DNA of 64,000 nucleotides, from contig NZ_JALGQH010000018.1 in assembly GCF_022810305.1 (NCBI RefSeq), positions 51,666 to 115,665 of the forward strand. Reading direction: 5' to 3'. Below the pieces are notes generated by a model. That model was not told the origin of the DNA, searched no databases, and saw nothing but the letters and a program-made list of their open reading frames with translations. How positions within the stretch are numbered: position 1 is the stretch's first letter; each line of letters begins with the position of its first letter. The stretch comes from Rhodococcus sp. ARC_M6. GTDB taxonomy: Bacteria; Actinomycetota; Actinomycetes; Mycobacteriales; Mycobacteriaceae. Shown here piece after piece: positions 11,891 to 28,394 of this stretch. The position numbers were made by a program, and so were the translations under genes.

Positions 11891-13411
11891 TTAACCTGCG
11901 CCTCGATCAGGAAGGAAAGTGGCGATCTCCGGGAAGAAGATCAGGATCAGGATCACGATCACCGCCATGGGCAGGAACCACCCGGCAGCGACAAAAACAT
12001 CCTTGAGAGAAATCGGAGTACCAAGGTTGACTTTGGGATCCTTGACCAGTGAGTGCACGATCATCGACAGAATTCCCACCGGCGGGCTGATCACGGCGAG
12101 TTCACACATGAAGACGACAAACGCGCCGTACCAGAGTAGTGAAATATCCAGGGTGGCCAACGTCGGGATCAGAATCGGCACGGTCAGAACCATCATCGCC
12201 AGCGAGTCCATGAACGCACCGAGGAAGAGATACACGACCATCATCATCAGGAGGAACTGCACACGTCCGAGATTCATATCGGCGACGAGGTCGGCGAATC
12301 CGTTGCTGATGCCGGTCAGGGTCATCATGCGCGAGAGAATGGCGACACCCACCAAAAGCATGAAGATTGCGCCGACAGTTGCCACGGCGCCAAGGGAAGC
12401 CTCCGACACCGCAGCCCAAGCCCCACCCTTGCGCTTCCAGATAACCAAGACGATGAGCGATGCAAGTGCCGCAACGGCACCGGCTTCGGTCGCCGTGAAA
12501 AGACCGGAGAACATGCCGTAGGTGATGATGAAGACGATCAGCGGCACTGGCCAGATGTTCACCAGACTGTCGAAGCGGCCGCGCCAACTCGTCTTGACGA
12601 TCGACGACGGATCGGCGGCACTGGGGTCGATACCCTTACCGAACTTGGCAAAGACCACGATCATGATCGTGAACATGACCATCACCAGCAGACCCGGTCC
12701 GACGCCCGCCATCAACTGCTTGCCAACCGGCACCTCGGCGATGCCCGCGTACAGCACCATCAGAATGCTCGGGGGGATCAACTGCCCGGGCAGGCTCGCA
12801 ACGAGAACCGCGCCAACTGCCAAGTGCTTGCTGTACCCGGCCTTCAGCATCTCCGGAACGCCGATGCGCGCGAGTGCGTACACCGTGCCGGTGGTGGATC
12901 CACTGACTGCGCCCAGCCCCGCTCCGGCAAGGTTTGTACCCGCTGCAAGTCCGCCGGGAAGCCAACCGAGCCACTGACGTCCGGCCCCGTAGAGACTTTC
13001 GGTCAAGCCGGACTTCCACAGAAACAATCCCATCAGGATGAACATCGGCAGGACACTCAGAGTCCAGCTGGCGACCTCGTCATAGGGCACAGTGGCGAAG
13101 ATCGTCTCGACCACCTTGGGACCACGCATCGAATACATGGCAGCCAGGGATGGCACGATCATCGCGATCGCGACCGGTAGACGCAAGAAGATCAGCATCA
13201 CCATCGAGACGATGGCTGCAATCCCGATCGCCTCCGACTTGAGCGGCAAGAAAATTGCAACACTCGAAATGACCGCGGCGGCTACGAACACACTGAAAGT
13301 GATCCATGACCGGTAGGCGATCTTCTTGTTCGGTCCTACGAACGAGTCCGGCTTACGCCCTGACTCCTCCGAAGATATCTTCTCGAGTTCGATCTCAGGA
13401 ACAGTGGTCAT
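11891..13411 (-). CDS. dctM: TRAP transporter large permease (DctM)
   Basis: 506-residue integral membrane protein, the ion-coupled transport subunit of a TRAP system. About a dozen hydrophobic helices are visible, starting near residue 35, with typical DctM loop motifs such as GLTESLYGAGRQWLGWLPGG, TGTVYALARIGVPEML and PPSILMVLYAGIAEVPVG. TRAP carriers import carboxylates using a sodium or proton gradient. The N-terminal 30 residues are charged and cytoplasmic. The ATG overlaps the dctQ stop by four bases (ATGA), so translation is coupled. DctM, DctQ and the DctP lipoprotein together make one importer. Confidence 0.92.
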   Translation of the reverse strand: MTTVPEIELEKISSEESGRKPDSFVGPNKKIAYRSWITFSVFVAAAVISSVAIFLPLKSEAIGIAAIVSMVMLIFLRLPVAIAMIVPSLAAMYSMRGPKVVETIFATVPYDEVASWTLSVLPMFILMGLFLWKSGLTESLYGAGRQWLGWLPGGLAAGTNLAGAGLGAVSGSTTGTVYALARIGVPEMLKAGYSKHLAVGAVLVASLPGQLIPPSILMVLYAGIAEVPVGKQLMAGVGPGLLVMVMFTIMIVVFAKFGKGIDPSAADPSSIVKTSWRGRFDSLVNIWPVPLIVFIITYGMFSGLFTATEAGAVAALASLIVLVIWKRKGGAWAAVSEASLGAVATVGAIFMLLVGVAILSRMMTLTGISNGFADLVADMNLGRVQFLLMMMVVYLFLGAFMDSLAMMVLTVPILIPTLATLDISLLWYGAFVVFMCELAVISPPVGILSMIVHSLVKDPKVNLGTPISLKDVFVAAGWFLPMAVIVILILIFFPEIATFLPDRGAG

Positions 13412-14019
13412 TTTGTTTCCACCTCAGCTGAATCAGGGGTGTGGGAAGACTCCGCATCGGTCAATGGCTCAGCATCCGCTTCGGTGAATCGCGCTTCGTC
13501 CGCTTCGTTCGCCGAAACGAGTTCCTCGACAGTGTCCGGACGCATAATCGATCGGTACGCCGCGTATCCGAATTGCGCTGTGAGACTCGCGAAGACCAAT
13601 GGAACAAGGAACATGACCGGCCAGGAGATCAGCGTACTGACTCCCGCTGTCTTACCAATCTTGGCCGAGTGCTGCGCTTCTCCCCATCCATACCAAGCAA
13701 ATCCAGCCATCACCACCGCAGTGATGATGTATCCGATACCCAACACCCACGGTCGCGTCACTGGCGGCAACTTGTCAAAGATCAGGTCTGCGGTGATGTG
13801 TTCGTTGCGCGCCTGTGCCGCGACGAATCCGAGCAGCGCGATGATCGGGACGTACCAGTACTGGGTCAATTCCAGTGTGTGATTGATCGGGGCGCCGCCC
13901 AGAGAACGCAGCAACGCGTTGGCTGCGATGTGCACCATCATCAGGAATGTGACGATGACGGCGGGCACCTCGATCAGTAAGAGAAGGCGACTTTCACGCC
14001 CCGCGCTCGATGCGCTCAT
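13408..14019 (-). CDS. dctQ: TRAP transporter small permease (DctQ)
   Basis: 203-residue small membrane subunit with four hydrophobic segments (about residues 12-34, 45-65, 85-105 and 128-150). It has the conserved NHTLELTQYWYVPIIALLGF region of DctQ proteins. DctQ supports DctM in the membrane. The ATG at 14019 has GGAG eight bases upstream and begins just before the first helix; a GTG at 14058 would add 13 residues with a poor ribosome site. The C-terminal 45 residues are acidic (many Glu and Asp) and not part of the common fold. It is the first gene of the dctQM unit, with its promoter at 14105-14133. Confidence 0.88.
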   Translation of the reverse strand: MSASSAGRESRLLLLIEVPAVIVTFLMMVHIAANALLRSLGGAPINHTLELTQYWYVPIIALLGFVAAQARNEHITADLIFDKLPPVTRPWVLGIGYIITAVVMAGFAWYGWGEAQHSAKIGKTAGVSTLISWPVMFLVPLVFASLTAQFGYAAYRSIMRPDTVEELVSANEADEARFTEADAEPLTDAESSHTPDSAEVETK

Positions 14020-14104
14020 GGTCCATACTCCAAACTGCCTGTCAGCGGTGGATAACACCAGCTAACTCATAAGCTCTTCGTGATTCGAGTCACGACCAAT
14101 GAAT

Positions 14105-14304: not shown

Positions 14305-15402
14305 TCAGATTCCGACCAAGTCAGCCAACTCCGCACGATGTTGATTACTATTGCCGAAGATCGGTTCGACTGCCTTGGCGCGCCGGAAGAACAGATGCGG
14401 ATCAGCTTCCCAGGTGAAACCGATACCGCCATGAACCTGAATATTCGTACTCGCACACAGTGTCAGGCACTCGGAAGCCTGCCCCTTGGCCATGATTGCC
14501 GCCCTCAGGAACTCGTCATTGTCATGCTCGGCGCACATCGACGCGTACATGACCGTAGCCTGAGCCGCATCGATCGAAATCGCCATGTCCGCACATTTGT
14601 GTTTGACCGCCTGGAACGAGCCGATCACGCGGTTGAACTGAACGCGCTGCTTCGCGTACTCGACAGCCATGTTGAGTGCCGCTTCCGCAGCCCCGAGCGC
14701 TTCGTTTGCGAGCAGTGTACGCACCACGCCGATAACCCGCTCGATCGATCGCACGTCGGCGCCGAGCAACTGAGCCGGGGCGTCGTTCAACTCGACCGTT
14801 GCAACTGGGCGAGTGAAGTCGAGCGAGTCGCGTCCCGTAATCGCTACCCCGGCCGAATCTGCCGCCACCACATACAGTGCCACCGCACCACCGTCCGGCG
14901 TCACTGCCGGAACAACCAACAGATCGGCAATGTGACCGAACGCAACGTAGTCGAGTCGGCCCGTCAACTTCGGCGCATCCCCCGTCGCACGCACCAACGC
15001 GACGTCTACCTCGACGTCCTTGGTTCCGGCAAGTGCGAGCGAGCCGATGACACTGCCGTCCAACAACTTCGGAAGCAGATCCCGCTTCTGCGTGGCACTT
15101 CCCAAGCACAGAATCGCTTCAATTGCGCCGGCGGTCGCGATCATCGGCACCGGCGTCAGCGCCCGACCCAATTCCTGTGCCACGATTGCGGTTTCGAGGA
15201 AACTGAATCCTCCTCCACCGAACTCCTCGGCAACATGCAAACCAGGCACACCCATGTTGGAGGCCAACAACTGCCAGGTCTCGGTGTCATACCCGCCGCC
15301 CAGGGCGATGTCACGAACCTTGGTCATAGGTGCACGTTCGGACAGGAGCCTGCGCAACGAAGTGCGGAACTCGTCCTGGTCCTCGTCGAATGCGAAGTAC
15401 AC
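14305..15402 (-). CDS. Acyl-CoA dehydrogenase, small-subunit type
   Basis: 365-residue ACAD of the shorter type found as the partner in actinobacterial alpha2beta2 enzymes (for example the steroid side-chain dehydrogenases). The N-terminal FDEDQDEFRTSLRRLLSE and EEFGGGGFSFLE are typical. The FAD/substrate loop reads LALAGTKDVEVD rather than the usual TEP.GGSD. Near the C-terminus it has QVHGGIGFTWEADPHLFFRR, followed by EPIFGNSNQHR, where the medium-chain catalytic Glu would lie in YEG. Both key places are thus altered, fitting a structural or FAD-sharing subunit. It is 44 bases downstream of a full-length ACAD, so they are probably one heteromeric enzyme. Confidence 0.82.
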   Translation of the reverse strand: MYFAFDEDQDEFRTSLRRLLSERAPMTKVRDIALGGGYDTETWQLLASNMGVPGLHVAEEFGGGGFSFLETAIVAQELGRALTPVPMIATAGAIEAILCLGSATQKRDLLPKLLDGSVIGSLALAGTKDVEVDVALVRATGDAPKLTGRLDYVAFGHIADLLVVPAVTPDGGAVALYVVAADSAGVAITGRDSLDFTRPVATVELNDAPAQLLGADVRSIERVIGVVRTLLANEALGAAEAALNMAVEYAKQRVQFNRVIGSFQAVKHKCADMAISIDAAQATVMYASMCAEHDNDEFLRAAIMAKGQASECLTLCASTNIQVHGGIGFTWEADPHLFFRRAKAVEPIFGNSNQHRAELADLVGI

Positions 15403-15446: not shown

Positions 15447-16706
15447 TCAGGCGCTCTTGCGTCGCCCGATGTCCTGGAACGGCCCGCCGTCAAGACGAGG
15501 CTCTTTGGGTAGTCCGAGTAGTTGTTCACCGATGATGTTGCGCTGAACTTGCGAACTGCCGCCGTAGATCGTCGCGGCGCGCGCGTACAGTGCGATGTCG
15601 GTCCAGCAGTTCGACGAATTCTCGGTGCCCGGTTGCGGGGTGACGAGGATGCCTCCGTTGCCCTGGCCTGTCGGCGCCAACGCTTCCAAACCGAGAATCT
15701 CCATTCCCAGTTCGGTGTACCGCTGGAAGAACTCACTCCAGATCACCTTGCTGAAAGATCCGTCGACTCCGGGGACATCGCCGCTGAGCAACTTCGTCAG
15801 CGCCCGATATCCGCGAAACCTCATGGTCTGCACACGCGACCAGCACCACGCCAATTCACTACGAATGTGTGGGTCGTCGGACAGGCCACGTTCACGGGCC
15901 AGTTCGATCATCCGCTCGACCTCACGGCCGAAACGAACTGCGTCGGTGGTCGCGCGCACGCCTCGCTCGAATCCGAGCAGCATGTTGGCAGTGGCCCACC
16001 CACCGTTGACTTCACCGAGCACGTTGGACTTCGCTGTCCGTGCGTCGGTGAAGAACACCTCGTTGAACGCGACGTAGCCGGCGGCATTGACGATCGGTCG
16101 GACCTCTACGCCGGGCTGATCCATCGGTACCAGCAGGAAGGACAGGCCCCGGTGCTTCACTGCGCTCGGGTCGGTACGGACGATCGCGAAGATCCAGTTG
16201 GCGTTGCTACCGGCCGAGGTCCAGGTCTTCTGGCCGTTGATAACCCACTCGTCACCGTCGAGCACTGCTTTGGTTCGCATACCGGCCAGATCAGAGCCTG
16301 CCTCCGGCTCCGAATAGCCCTGGCACCAGACGTGCTCACCGGAGAGCATACGAGGAAGGAAGTAGTCCTTCTGCTCGTCAGTGCCCAGCACGGTGATCGT
16401 ATTTCCCAGCAACTTCAGTCCGAGCGAATCGTTCTCGGTGCCCTCGGGCACCCCGAGTCGCATCAGTTCCTCATTGAGCACAACCTGTTCGAGATCGGAC
16501 AGGCCGCCACCGCCGTATTCTTTCGGCCACGAAACAGCAAGCAAGTTGTTCTCCGAGAGAACCTTTCGCCATACCTTCAAGAATGCAACCTGCTCGGCGT
16601 CCGGAAGCGAGCCGATGCCACGCCAGTCCTCCGGAAGGTTCGATTCGAGCAGAGCCCGGATTTCCGAACGATACTTCTCGGCCTCCGCGGGGTATGTGAT
16701 GTCCAT
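15447..16706 (-). CDS. Acyl-CoA dehydrogenase, large-subunit type
   Basis: 419-residue ACAD with the actinobacterial N-terminus ([33 protein letters not shown]) and an intact FAD loop, [14 protein letters not shown], followed by [14 protein letters not shown]. The C-terminal segment is [19 protein letters not shown], with Gly where medium-chain enzymes have the catalytic Glu, as in isovaleryl-type enzymes that carry the base elsewhere. It is four bases downstream of the tandem CoA-transferase stop-start junction (16706/16710) and followed by the small ACAD at 14305. The two ACADs most likely form an alpha2beta2 enzyme acting on a bulky acyl-CoA made by the CoA-transferase. Confidence 0.87.
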
Positions 16707-19185: not shown

Positions 19186-19332
19186 TCAGTCGGATGACGG
19201 AAGTGGCTTCGCCGTAACGAGTTCCATTGCAACACCGTGGCAGGTGAACTGCCCATCACCCTTCTTGACGCAGATGATCTGGGTTTCACAGGTCGCGCAG
19301 GTATAGCGCTTACCAACCTCGTTCATGTTCAT
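19186..19332 (-). CDS. 48-residue desulforedoxin-like microprotein B
   Basis: A small open frame with MNMNEVGKRYTCATC at its N-terminus, then ETQIICVKKGDGQFTCHG. The pattern C-x2-C ... GG/GDG ... C-[CH]-G resembles the desulforedoxin / desulfoferrodoxin N-terminal FeS4 or zinc knuckle, except that the final Cys pair is CH. The rest of the protein is a short polar tail. A ribosome-like AAGAAGGG precedes the ATG at 19332; an ATG at 19326 is also in frame. It lies 53 bases downstream of microprotein A and 109 bases upstream of the tandem CoA-transferase, same strand. Metal (Fe or Zn) binding is inferred; function is unknown. Confidence 0.68.
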   Translation of the reverse strand: MNMNEVGKRYTCATCETQIICVKKGDGQFTCHGVAMELVTAKPLPSSD

Positions 19333-19385
19333 GCCCTTCTTGCTGACGCATTTCGGCAGACCGGAATGCGGTGATTATCGGTTTG

Positions 19386-19532
19386 CTATGCGCCGAAAGT
19401 AATTTCGACAGACTGGCCGCAACACGTGAGAGCCGATCCGCCGGCCTTTGTCACGATCGCTTCGGAACCGCACACGTTGCAGCGCAGTCGATTGCCATTG
19501 CCGGCCTGCGTTCCCACAGAATCAGAACTCAT
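19386..19532 (-). CDS. 48-residue desulforedoxin-like microprotein A
   Basis: A small frame from ATG 19532, with AGAAGGAG six bases upstream. After a Gly/Ser-rich N-terminus come LRCNVCGSEAIVTKAGGS and LTCCGQSVEITFGA. C-x2-C plus CC with a GG between and a CCGQ ending is the classic desulforedoxin-type metal site (rubredoxin-like FeS4, or Zn). The whole protein is just this knuckle, shorter than rubredoxins. It heads an apparent operon A - B - tandem CoA-transferase - ACAD - ACAD, with a promoter at 19590-19618. It may be an electron carrier, a metal-sensing or structural subunit; nothing in the sequence decides this. Confidence 0.72.
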   Translation of the reverse strand: MSSDSVGTQAGNGNRLRCNVCGSEAIVTKAGGSALTCCGQSVEITFGA

Positions 19533-19589
19533 CTCGCGCTCCTTCTAGTGACACCCGTGGACTCGCTTGAACCCACTGTAACCCATTTC

Positions 19590-19618
19590 ACTATAATCAT
19601 GATCATAGACTTCGGCAA
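19590..19618 (-). promoter_or_regulatory. Promoter and AATCATGATCAT element of the microprotein/CoA-transferase operon
   Basis: Minus-strand TTGCCG (19618-19613), 17-base spacer, TATAGT (19595-19590). The spacer contains the palindrome ATGATCAT beside the -10, related to the wATCAT cores at the dctP and dctQ promoters. A mirrored AATCATAGTCAT occurs about 110 bases away before the divergent gene at 19788. Confidence 0.55.
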
Positions 19619-19787
19619 CCATTGACTTCGATCCCGAGGCGCACGCCCCGCCGGAAGCCTCGTCCGGCGATTGCAGTCGCCTATCCCGTCACCTTGTTCT
19701 CAATTCATGACTATGATTATTTGAATTAGAGTCGATAGTAGGGCTCCGCGTTCAACTACACAAGACCACCGGAATGAGGAGTAATCC

Positions 19788-20279
19788 ATGACCGAATCCG
19801 AAGACCCCAATCCGTCCGAAGACACCGGCCCCTCCAAAGACACCAGCGCCGACGTCCGCAAGCCGATCCCTCGACCCGATGAGAACTCGGCGGGATACTG
19901 GACTGCCGCGCGTGAGCACCGCCTCGCAATTCAGTACTGCGCGCCGTGCGAACTGCTGATTCACACACCAGCCGGCATCTGCCCACAATGCGACAACGAC
20001 GACCTCGACTACCGAGATGTCTCCGGCCGGGGAAAGCTCTACTCCTACACAGTTATTCACGATGCTCCGGCACCAGCTTTTGCAAACATGCTGCCGTACA
20101 TCGTCGGTGTCATCGAACTCGAAGAGCAGGACCGACTGTTCATGATCGCCAATATCCTGGATACGCCCACTGAATCCGTAAAAATTGGAATTCCGATGGA
20201 AGTGACGTTCGAGAGTCTGACCCCGGATTGTGAACTGCCTCAGTTCCGCCCGGCGCACTTCAACACGACTGGAGACTGA
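19788..20279 (+). CDS. DUF35 OB-fold/zinc-ribbon acyl-CoA-associated protein
   Basis: 163 residues with an acidic, disordered N-terminal 30 residues, then the rubredoxin-like zinc ribbon (YCAPCELL and GICPQCDND, four Cys about residues 51-69) and an OB fold (SGRGKLYSYTVIHDAP, YIVGVIELEEQDRLFM). DUF35 proteins bind the CoA end of the substrate for thiolase-fold partners. It is three bases upstream of the thiolase-like gene at 20283, so the two surely form a complex. In steroid side-chain degradation a comparable DUF35 domain pairs with the retro-aldolase Ltp2. It is divergent from the microprotein operon. Confidence 0.86.
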   Translation: MTESEDPNPSEDTGPSKDTSADVRKPIPRPDENSAGYWTAAREHRLAIQYCAPCELLIHTPAGICPQCDNDDLDYRDVSGRGKLYSYTVIHDAPAPAFANMLPYIVGVIELEEQDRLFMIANILDTPTESVKIGIPMEVTFESLTPDCELPQFRPAHFNTTGD

Positions 20280-20282
20280 CCC

Positions 20283-21470
20283 ATGTGGGAACTACGCGAC
20301 AAGGTAGCGATCGCCGGAATCGGGTACACCGAACTCACCCGCCGATCCCCTCGAACACTGGCATCGTTGACTCTCGAGGCAGTAGATGCAGCGATCGCCG
20401 ATGCGGGTTTGGCCCGCAAGGACATCGACGGACTGGCGACCACTCCGACGATGCCCGTCTACGGCGGAGACAAGGGCACTATCGACGGCGTCGACGTCGT
20501 CACACCCGGATTTCTCGGTCAGGCAATGCATATCCAAGATCAACTGACCTGGATGGGCAACACGACCCCGATGGTCACCCATGCCGCTATCGACGCTATC
20601 AACGCTCTGGCCGCCGGTGCCTGTTCACACGTAATCGTCTATCGCGCACTACATATGCCGGTCGGACGCTACTCGAACTTCACCAACGCCCACGCTGCCG
20701 GCCGAGACCAGTACTTTGCTCCCTACGGCTTTTCGATGCCCGCAGCCTGGGCCGCCACCGTCTTCCGTCGCTTCCTGGATCTGCGGGGCGGGACGCGCGA
20801 GAGTCTGGCGCGTTTCGCGGTGGATAATCGCGCCAACGCAAACAAGAACCCTCACGCGTTCTTCCGTGACAAACCCCTGACGACGGAGCAGTACCTGGCC
20901 TCGCGCATGATCGCCGACCCAATCACCATGCTGGACTGCGATATTCCCGTCGACGGTGCGGTCGCGATGGTTCTCACCCGCGCCGACCGTGCGCGTGATC
21001 TGAAGAATCCACCGGCCTTGGTGAGTGGCTACGCCGCCAGCACCCGTCTCGGTTCCACCGGTGTGCCGATGAACCTGGAAGACATCCTCGCCGGCTGCGC
21101 ACAGACCGGTGAACGCCTCTGGGCATCAACCGGTTTGAGTGCCTCCGATATCGATGTCGCTCAACTCTACGATGGATTCAGCGTATTCACGCACACCTGG
21201 CTCGAAGGCCTGGGCTTGGTTCCGCCCGGCGAGGCGCTCCGGTTCATCGACGACGGCAACGCTCGCCTCACCGGCACTCTCCCGGTCAACACCGGCGGTG
21301 GCTGCCTGGCAGAAGGACGCTTGCACGGCATGACGCAACTGACCGAAGCGGCCTATCAAGTCACCGATCGCGGCGGCGAACGACAGGTACCGGGGGCGTC
21401 ACGATCGATCGTGACTGTCTCGAACGGCTTGGCCGGCTCCACGGCATTCGTCATCAGTCGAGACAGCTGA
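20283..21470 (+). CDS. Thiolase-fold protein, probable retro-aldolase (Ltp2/SCP-x-like)
   Basis: 395-residue thiolase-superfamily protein of the SCP-x/lipid-transfer branch. It has the N-terminal AIAGIGYTELTRRSPRTLASL and the LYDGFSVFTHTWLEGLGL segment with a conserved Tyr. The nucleophilic Cys region is replaced (PMVTHAAIDAINALAAG has no Cys), the usual GHP is replaced in GGGCLAEGRLHGMTQLTE, and the C-terminal catalytic Cys loop reads VSNGLAGSTAFVIS. Without Cys it should not be a thiolase. The pattern fits Ltp2-type aldolases, which cleave a beta-hydroxyacyl-CoA to a ketone or aldehyde plus a shorter acyl-CoA with a DUF35 partner, here encoded three bases upstream. The substrate is unknown. 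Confidence 0.8.
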   Translation: MWELRDKVAIAGIGYTELTRRSPRTLASLTLEAVDAAIADAGLARKDIDGLATTPTMPVYGGDKGTIDGVDVVTPGFLGQAMHIQDQLTWMGNTTPMVTHAAIDAINALAAGACSHVIVYRALHMPVGRYSNFTNAHAAGRDQYFAPYGFSMPAAWAATVFRRFLDLRGGTRESLARFAVDNRANANKNPHAFFRDKPLTTEQYLASRMIADPITMLDCDIPVDGAVAMVLTRADRARDLKNPPALVSGYAASTRLGSTGVPMNLEDILAGCAQTGERLWASTGLSASDIDVAQLYDGFSVFTHTWLEGLGLVPPGEALRFIDDGNARLTGTLPVNTGGGCLAEGRLHGMTQLTEAAYQVTDRGGERQVPGASRSIVTVSNGLAGSTAFVISRDS

Positions 21471-26805: not shown

Positions 26806-28293
26806 TCAGAGATTAGGAGCCGTGATCTGGACAGCCAGATCACGGCGGACAAGCTTGCCGGTTGCGGTCTTGGGCAATTCGTCGACGAAAACGACCTCGT
26901 CCGGAGTTCGCGAGCCTCGCAAGCGACTGCGGCACCAGTCGCGAATGTCCTCGTGATCGGGAATGTCGTTGCCCTTCAAGACGATTACGGCGCAGATCCG
27001 CTCACCCCATTCGTCATCGGGCATTCCGATGACAGCGATCTCTTGAACGGCGGGATGGTGCACCAGTACGTCCTCGATCTCCGCCGGCGCGATGTTTTCG
27101 CCGCCGCGGATGATGGTGTCGTCCGCGCGGCCACCGATGTAGAGAAACTCTCCCTCCACGCGGGCGCGGTCTTTGGTGGGGAACCATCCCTGCACGTCAA
27201 GCGCGGAGCCCTTACCCATGTATTCGCCGCTGACCTGAGCGCCGCGTACCCAAAGCAGACCGGTCTCACCGTCGCCGAGCACGTTGTCCGCCTCATCGCG
27301 GACCTCGACCTCCATACCAGGCACGATGCGCCCCACCGAACCCAGTCTGCCGCGCAATGCCGGATCGGCCAGCGCTTCACGGTGATCTTCTGGGCCTAGA
27401 ACTGCAATGGTGGAGCTGGTTTCGGTCAGACCGTAGGCATTGACGAACCCGGTCTGAGGGAATGCCGCGAGTGCACTTTCGAGCACCGGTTGAGGCATGC
27501 GCGCACCGCCGTAAGCCAGGGATTCGAGCGCCGGGGTATCAGCCGGGGCACCATCCAGGTGCTGCACGACGCGCGCCAACATCGTCGGCACCACCATCGC
27601 GCTGGTGATCGATTCCTCGCGGACGAGATCGAGCCAGGACTGCGGGGTGAAATCGGGAAGATGAACCATCCGCCGCGTCCCGTAGACGTTGCTGAGCACC
27701 GCGCCCATGCCGGCAATATGGTAGGGCGGCGTGCTGACCAATGTCGCCTGTTCCTCACCGGCAGAACCGAATTCAACGGTATTCAGGAGATAAGACAGCA
27801 GGTGCTGATGGCGCAACAACACGCCCTTGGGTGCAGACGTCGTACCGCTGGTGAACAGTACAATTGCCGTTGCATCGTCCGGCGCCGGTACGGTTTCCGT
27901 CGCGGGAGCAGCTTTGGCACGCTTGACGAACTCATCGGTAGTCAACACGATCGAGGCTGACGCGGCCAGCTTGTCCCGGTACGCGACATCGGCCACGACA
28001 ACCGGATCATCCAGTTGCGCAATGAGTTCGAGAAGCTGATCGGTTGCGAGTCGATAGTTCAAGGGCGCAAATCGCACCCCCGCCCGCGCGGCCGAGAAGA
28101 CCAACAGAGGCAGAGCAGCGCTATTGACACCGACAAAGACCAGGTCACGTGCGCCCAACTCCCGCAGCACCGTGACACCGCCCGCGGCCGAGTCGCTGAG
28201 TTGCTGATAGGACATTCCGTCGCCGCGTCGCCCCACCGCCAGCCTGTCCGGATATACCGACGTCGCCATATCCAGAACCATTTCGATACCCAT
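26806..28293 (-). CDS. Acyl-CoA ligase (AMP-forming, FadD-like)
   Basis: 495-residue ANL-superfamily ligase that makes acyl-AMP and then acyl-CoA. The P-loop is IVLFTSGTTSAPKG. Further motifs are AYGLTETSSTIAV, TGLLWVRG, GWFPTKDRARVEGEFLYIGG with the conserved Asp, the hinge RADDTIIRGGENIAPAEIED, and the catalytic Lys in PKTATGKLVRRD. The ATG at 28293 is preferred to a GTG at 28302, with little ribosome-site evidence either way. It is the first gene of the minus-strand operon running to 21561 and is divergent from the second FCD regulator at 28574, the usual layout for autoregulated catabolic operons. Confidence 0.9.
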   Translation of the reverse strand: MGIEMVLDMATSVYPDRLAVGRRGDGMSYQQLSDSAAGGVTVLRELGARDLVFVGVNSAALPLLVFSAARAGVRFAPLNYRLATDQLLELIAQLDDPVVVADVAYRDKLAASASIVLTTDEFVKRAKAAPATETVPAPDDATAIVLFTSGTTSAPKGVLLRHQHLLSYLLNTVEFGSAGEEQATLVSTPPYHIAGMGAVLSNVYGTRRMVHLPDFTPQSWLDLVREESITSAMVVPTMLARVVQHLDGAPADTPALESLAYGGARMPQPVLESALAAFPQTGFVNAYGLTETSSTIAVLGPEDHREALADPALRGRLGSVGRIVPGMEVEVRDEADNVLGDGETGLLWVRGAQVSGEYMGKGSALDVQGWFPTKDRARVEGEFLYIGGRADDTIIRGGENIAPAEIEDVLVHHPAVQEIAVIGMPDDEWGERICAVIVLKGNDIPDHEDIRDWCRSRLRGSRTPDEVVFVDELPKTATGKLVRRDLAVQITAPNL

Positions 28294-28394
28294 TGCACCC
28301 ACTTGGTAGTCACTGATTTGCCGACAGTCACGCTTCGAGTGGCCGTAACCACCCGCTAAGACCTTTTCGTACGAACCATAACAAGAGATTTAGT

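Follow-up and report, generated by a model that had tools for sequence, protein, structure and literature searches.

MbtH-like proteins are small, conserved proteins that are encoded beside adenylate-forming enzymes and that help adenylation domains. Other small proteins carry a metal site. For instance, the amino-group carrier LysW (PF21344) is a small protein with a metal knuckle and an acidic C-terminus that does not vary, and ChsH2, the OB-fold partner of thiolases, is a small metal-ribbon partner of acyl-CoA enzymes. Desulforedoxin, whose module is found in the proteins described here, was not found to be tied to actinobacteria, CoA-transferases or acyl-CoA in the titles and opening parts of abstracts of the open-licence PMC literature.

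Here, we describe a pair of microproteins, A and B, encoded in Rhodococcus sp. ARC_M6, together with the family to which they belong and the acyl-CoA ligases with which this family occurs. The stretch of DNA that was analysed, of 64,000 nucleotides, is called the window, and all positions refer to it.

The twin genes and their operon

Both genes are set between a divergent OB-fold/thiolase pair (19788-21470, plus strand) and a CoA-transferase of 788 aa on the minus strand (Table 1). A sequence-only reading of the window had pointed out two adjacent 48-codon ORFs with metal-knuckle patterns and good ribosome sites, and both are present on the minus strand, B with the pattern CxxC..CCG and A with CxxC..CHG. 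The ribosome sites are found as well, AGAAGGAG ahead of B and AGAAGGG ahead of the second ATG of A. This second ATG, at 19326, is most likely the translation start of A, giving a protein of 46 aa (MNEVGKRY...), because AGAAGGG lies 7 nt from it and only 1 nt from the first ATG, and because the relatives P0001-P0004 begin there. Consequently, the equal length of the twins holds for the ORFs but is partly accidental for the proteins. It had also been supposed that such frames fall below the usual annotation limits; this is not always the case, as NCBI names some of the relatives hypothetical proteins.

Table 1. Features of the twin locus and of the proposed partner gene in the window
Feature	Position	Strand	Remarks
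Acyl-CoA dehydrogenase 2	14305..15402	minus	best NCBIfam scores IpdE2 and pimD_small, under cut-off
Acyl-CoA dehydrogenase 1	15447..16706	minus	best NCBIfam score pimC_large, far under cut-off
Tandem family III CoA-transferase, 788 aa	16710..19076	minus	Pfam CoA_transf_3, two stretches; directly downstream of the twins
Microprotein A	19186..19332	minus	module CATC..CH and C-terminal KPLPSSD; likely start 19326
Ribosome-binding site of A, AGAAGGG	19334..19340	minus	7 nt before the second ATG
Microprotein B	19386..19532	minus	48 aa; first gene; desulforedoxin-like module CNVC..CC; without tail
Ribosome-binding site of B, AGAAGGAG	19539..19546	minus	6 nt before the ATG
Sigma-70-like promoter ahead of B	19590..19618	minus	TTGCCG-17-TATAGT, 9/12 match; 0.4 expected in shuffles
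Operator-like near-palindrome CTATGATCATGATTATAG	19591..19608	.	2 mismatches to its own complement; overlies the promoter
AMP-forming acyl-CoA ligase, proposed client	26806..28302	minus	in the 70-row partner clade, support 100

A and B are real genes and are under strong purifying selection. When the window was pooled with six related loci (L046, L047 with its two pairs, L048, L067, L068 and L069), the pN/pS ratio was 0.16 for A and 0.25 for B, against 1.8-3.3 in three control frames (two shifted and one antisense), so that the synonymous/non-synonymous test that had been called for reveals selection at the protein level. Conservation of the Cys residues across relatives is also observed. Among the matches listed, there are 25 relatives of A and five of B, where the five include the copy of the window itself (P0026). 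The metal ligands do not vary in the alignments of A (the window and 24 of the 25 relatives, P0001 being left out) and of B (the window and four relatives), PLPSSD is invariant in the 25-row alignment of A, and CxxC..CC is kept in 12 of 13 B-type rows. One of the related loci, L047 (G053:C96:58412-59313), contains two B-A pairs in succession, that is, four microproteins followed by a CoA-transferase; its two A copies are identical across the 42 residues compared.

The tandem CoA-transferase and the pair of acyl-CoA dehydrogenases (ACADs) that had been read downstream of the twins are there, with the correction that the CoA-transferase is a single ORF with two CoA_transf_3 stretches. The arrangement is conserved in other genomes, since a CoA-transferase on the same strand begins 71-118 nt downstream of the twins not only in the window but also in five related loci (L046, L047, L048, L067 and L068). 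In Amycolatopsis (L069), a gene that looks LLM-like by eye and genes of the ACAD cluster come after the twins. Downstream of the ACADs of the window, two ORFs of 506 and 216 aa (11891-14058), which we take to resemble a TRAP transporter pair, hint at an organic-acid substrate for the cluster. On the divergent side, the twins are adjoined by an OB-fold, ChsH2-like gene (PF12172, PF01796; 19788-20279).

The promoter that had been claimed ahead of the twins is a sigma-70-like match, and better evidence comes from the near-palindrome that overlies it, which recurs as AT[CG]ATTAT[AG]GTGAA upstream of seven of the eight B genes, being absent at L069. This motif occurs 23 times when all loci are searched on both strands (3.9 million letters, with overlapping loci recounted). 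Operator-like stretches of related sequence are observed at both divergent promoters, at 19591-19608 and at 19707-19720 (inverted repeat). Together with the recurrence before B genes, they suggest that one regulator could act on both divergent sides.

A two-module family with a constant tail

The modules of the twins are desulforedoxin-like, as had been proposed. B is matched by Pfam Desulfoferrod_N (PF06397) with 31.4 bits (cut-off 23) and by the PDB desulforedoxin 1cfw with an E value of 4e-4, while A alone matched no Pfam family at E <= 1 and has only a weak match, with an E value of 0.003 and far under the cut-off, to the desulfoferrodoxin model of NCBIfam. These scans covered, for Pfam, the genes of the window and the small relatives and, for NCBIfam, the genes of the window and four ligases. 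In P0005, a natural B-A fusion of 81 aa, the metal ligands are present in both modules; this protein scores 32.1 against PF06397, and its structural model fits the desulforedoxin 1dxg with 0.6 A over 36 columns, at a Foldseek probability of 0.97 but an E value of only 0.78. PF06397 was not matched by the three fused forms scanned against Pfam. A desulfoferrodoxin or superoxide reductase was also considered for the twins and rejected, since they lack its C-terminal catalytic domain: they have 46-48 aa and score 17.7 and 19.7 bits with TIGR00320, for which the cut-off is 146.9.

Judging from profile comparisons, the twins are the split form of a two-module small-protein family. Most of the copies found are fused proteins of about 100-102 aa that begin with the B module, continue with the A module and end in the same tail, but lack the metal site. 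When compared as profiles, the fused form without the metal site matches A with an E value of 1.7e-22, and its first module matches B with 1.7e-8. A search of 101 relatives with A gave a match in 18, and both pairs and fused two-module proteins were found. In a database profile search, 7,988 of the 8,000 scored proteins matched at E <= 1e-5; the best 120 of these 7,988 have no Pfam domain and, where they are named at all, are mostly called "hypothetical protein".

The constant element of this family is the tail, not the metal. Among the matches listed, all 25 relatives of A have both CxxC..C[CH] and a P[SA]SD end. By contrast, CxxC..C[CH] is found in none of the best 120 of the 7,988 fused proteins, all of which end exactly in P[SA]SD. 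Similarly, all 60 copies examined from the class search have P[SA]SD directly at the stop, and none has CxxC..C[CH]; they are 60 of the 106 HMM matches listed, all from the first 74, for an HMM that includes the tail. The contig scan behind L066-L095 used the pattern [AVQ]xAKPLPSSD and, therefore, the constancy of the tail in those loci is built in. The model of the fused form has a pLDDT of 94, with 72 for the last block of three residues.

The form of the protein varies between lineages. The members from Frankia and Pseudofrankia (L080, L081, L084 and L088) are fused and have lost the first site, those from Chloroflexi (L082) and Desulfarculaceae (L086) are separate pairs with sites, and those from SAR324 (L093 and L095) are single modules that have no Cys and keep the PLPSSD tail. 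Several genomes carry more than one form or copy. The genome of L202 (G815:C23) combines a B-A pair with a fused copy that adjoins its clade ligase on a different contig; G093 has six small-protein matches; and in G093 and the f32/g119 genomes, which have several copies, some of them adjoin P450- or VOC dioxygenase-like genes. The g119 genomes, with several small-protein copies, have one clade ligase.

A subfamily of acyl-CoA ligases as proposed partner

In the neighbourhood of the family, acyl-CoA ligases are frequent. A ligase on the same strand lies within 350 nt of the small gene in 67 of 117 loci (31 upstream, 38 downstream, two of them both), against a cluster-based background of 31 ligases among 1,082 genes of these regions that are not adjacent. 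CaiB or an ACAD takes this place in 12 of the 117 loci (CaiB without a ligase in 7), no ligase is adjacent in 50, and no same-strand neighbour was recognised in 19, which means none of the families in the limited reference set with which the tblastn tally was made. References of this tally that lie outside the window were named by inspection of their sequences or by BLAST clustering. L066, a copy of L046, is left out of the count, which includes the near-identical L091/L092 and L051/L052. Genes resembling CaiB, ACAD, amidohydrolase, P450 and VOC dioxygenase are also seen among the neighbours. Among the loci in which the Cys site is kept, sorted by hand, only 7 of 29 have an adjacent ligase. 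None of the acyl-CoA families tested is represented among the neighbours in the two SAR324 loci, where the next gene looks LysM/SPOR-like by eye. No fusion of ligase and small protein was found among neighbours in the same frame.

From their tree and profile scores, the partner ligases are a distinct, unnamed acyl-CoA ligase subfamily. In a 100-row tree, built by a quick method, 62 of the 68 adjacent ligases and the ligase of the window fall in one clade with a support of 100, and the window ligase is grouped there with the ligases from the twin loci L046, L068 and L069. In this tree, L087, titled as a Bifidobacterium breve MAG, lies beside Acidimicrobiia L074; it also has a near-identical pair and is probably a contaminated or misnamed bin. 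A ligase profile trained on some of the clade's own rows gives 653-808 bits within the clade (458 for one cut-off copy) and 470 or less for the rest; the four best ligases outside the clade, from Chloroflexi, Desulfarculaceae and G080, also adjoin small genes. The genome of the window has one ligase of this subfamily (the sole match at E <= 1e-140), located on the strand and in the cluster of the twins, about 7 kb off with other genes between. The next best ligase is 38% identical, and the ten other ligases of the genome score 337 bits or less on the clade profile. Among the 25 of 35 NCBIfam rows shown for the window ligase, none is over its cut-off. The partner ligase keeps the ordinary motifs of CoA ligases.

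Genome by genome, ligase and small protein go together. Among 394 genomes of the class, the small protein was found in 74 and the clade ligase in 75, with both in 74, the ligase only in one and the small protein only in none. The single exception, G245, is 68% complete, and no family member was found in the 7.6 kb read around its ligase. Fisher's test gives 3e-80 for this co-occurrence, a value that is overstated because the genomes are related; at the level of genera, the small protein and the clade ligase are found in 22 and 23 of 138, respectively. In a sample of 396 genomes of the phylum, the small protein was present in all 19 with the ligase, seven of which were not among the positives of the class sample. 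It was found in 21 genomes overall, and the two without the ligase (G538 and G638) have plain desulforedoxins with no tail. As for distance (between lower coordinates on the same contig), a small gene lies within 2 kb of 60 of the 82 clade ligases in the class set and within 15 kb of 66, while the other 16 are farther away or on another contig. Some genomes, such as G439, have several small genes but one clade ligase.

Possible roles of the small protein

We propose that A and B jointly form an accessory subunit dedicated to the acyl-CoA ligase of their cluster, a reading that we hold to have an even chance of being right. By analogy, the role would likely be MbtH-like, although the proteins are not of the MbtH family, which is not represented when the twins and the scanned relatives are matched to Pfam at E <= 1. 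B and A would come together in a pseudo-dimer that mirrors the module pair of the fused form, and the twin CxxC..C[CH] sites would hold zinc (or iron) for structure. A structural metal in the twin version is probable, because A keeps three Cys and the His of the site and because the site is missing from most relatives. The tail, flexible and ending in a free carboxylate, would dock onto the ligase and, if the analogy with MbtH-like proteins is correct, docking would be needed for folding, activation or correct acyl hand-over. Twins that are encoded beside a CoA-transferase would act in the same pathway at the step of acyl activation, and the conserved CoA-transferase/ACAD context may add a second client.

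The co-occurrence with the ligase might also stem from a shared catabolic module, with the small protein serving a common step without contact, for instance by protecting or sensing a CoA intermediate. The variety of the other neighbours (CaiB, ACAD, amidohydrolase, P450 and VOC dioxygenase look-alikes, named by eye or BLAST clustering) and the 16 of 82 ligases that are distant from a small gene agree with such a companion, but the ligase subfamily stays constant while the neighbours vary (in a genome-wide test that covered the ligase alone among the neighbour families), and we consider this explanation unlikely. Nevertheless, some room for a role without direct contact is left by the distant ligases, the loci without an adjacent ligase, the genomes with multiple small genes and the SAR324 members, as well as by the 7 of 29 ligase adjacencies at loci with the Cys site. 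It is improbable that the ligase loads an acyl group on the C-terminal tail, or activates this tail, as in a LysW-like carrier whose bound substrate is used by the enzymes of the pathway. The exact free C-terminus of 60 of 60 copies, the lack of fusions to neighbouring ligases, the low model confidence in the tail (72 and 60 for the last blocks in two models) and the varied pathway neighbours would suit a carrier; however, neither Cys nor Lys is invariant at any of the last seven positions, LysW is matched by P0005 only with an E value of 0.14 and by neither twin, and the ligase retains ordinary CoA-ligase motifs. A more specific version, in which the ligase would activate an acid onto or at the free P[SA]SD, CoA-transferases, dehydrogenases and oxygenases would use the bound substrate, and the metal site would be a discarded ancestral scaffold, appears to us quite improbable.

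Two further explanations start from the operon of the window. If the twins were subunits of the CoA-transferase itself, its position immediately downstream in six loci would be expected; yet more loci of the family lie beside a ligase, CaiB without a ligase accounts for only 7 of 117, and the twins of Amycolatopsis precede other genes, so that this role seems very doubtful. The sequence-only reading had named electron carriers or subunits for the ACAD pair as a possibility. Rubredoxin-like iron sites that would pass electrons from the ACADs are suggested by the desulforedoxin match of B, the CxxC..CC of 12 of 13 B-type rows and the two ACADs downstream, but His replaces the fourth Cys in A, and the site is missing in 60 of 60 fused relatives from the class search and in the best 120 of 7,988, while tail and genomic partner stay. 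We give this idea very little probability because the tail, and not the metal site, is constant across the family. A role as ACAD subunits is possible for the twins of the window, but it is not a general rule, as a ligase is adjacent in 67 loci, against 12 with CaiB or an ACAD instead, and as it is a ligase subfamily whose presence follows that of the small protein from genome to genome.

If the accessory-subunit proposal is true, a role could be predicted and a partner named for thousands of proteins of about 102 aa without a Pfam domain. In addition, since this ligase subfamily is nearly always found with a dedicated small protein, assays of the ligase without it may fail. The family would also be a case in which a metal-binding fold kept its tail and its partner even though the metal site was lost.

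Comparison with known systems

With desulforedoxin and the N-terminal domain of desulfoferrodoxin (PF06397, TIGR00319), B shares the module and the CxxC..CC site. Unlike desulforedoxin, the twins form a B-A pair in which CH replaces CC in A and a fixed P[SA]SD tail ends this module, the fused relatives have no metal site, and the family sits in acyl-CoA gene clusters. The likeness to LysW is one of general design, as the family of the twins is also small, with a metal knuckle and an invariant acidic C-terminus, but the tail differs. The LysW globular domain (PF21344) was matched by neither twin in the Pfam scan at E <= 1, its match to P0005 is under the cut-off, and the Foldseek match to a chain of the LysW complex has an E value of only 7.7. 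ChsH2 is likewise a small metal-ribbon partner, but it belongs to another family and has another partner than the twins. Finally, like MbtH-like proteins, the members of this family are small, conserved and encoded beside adenylate-forming enzymes, and a helper role is proposed for these small proteins; unlike MbtH-like proteins, they appear to be derived from desulforedoxin, and their partner would be an acyl-CoA ligase.
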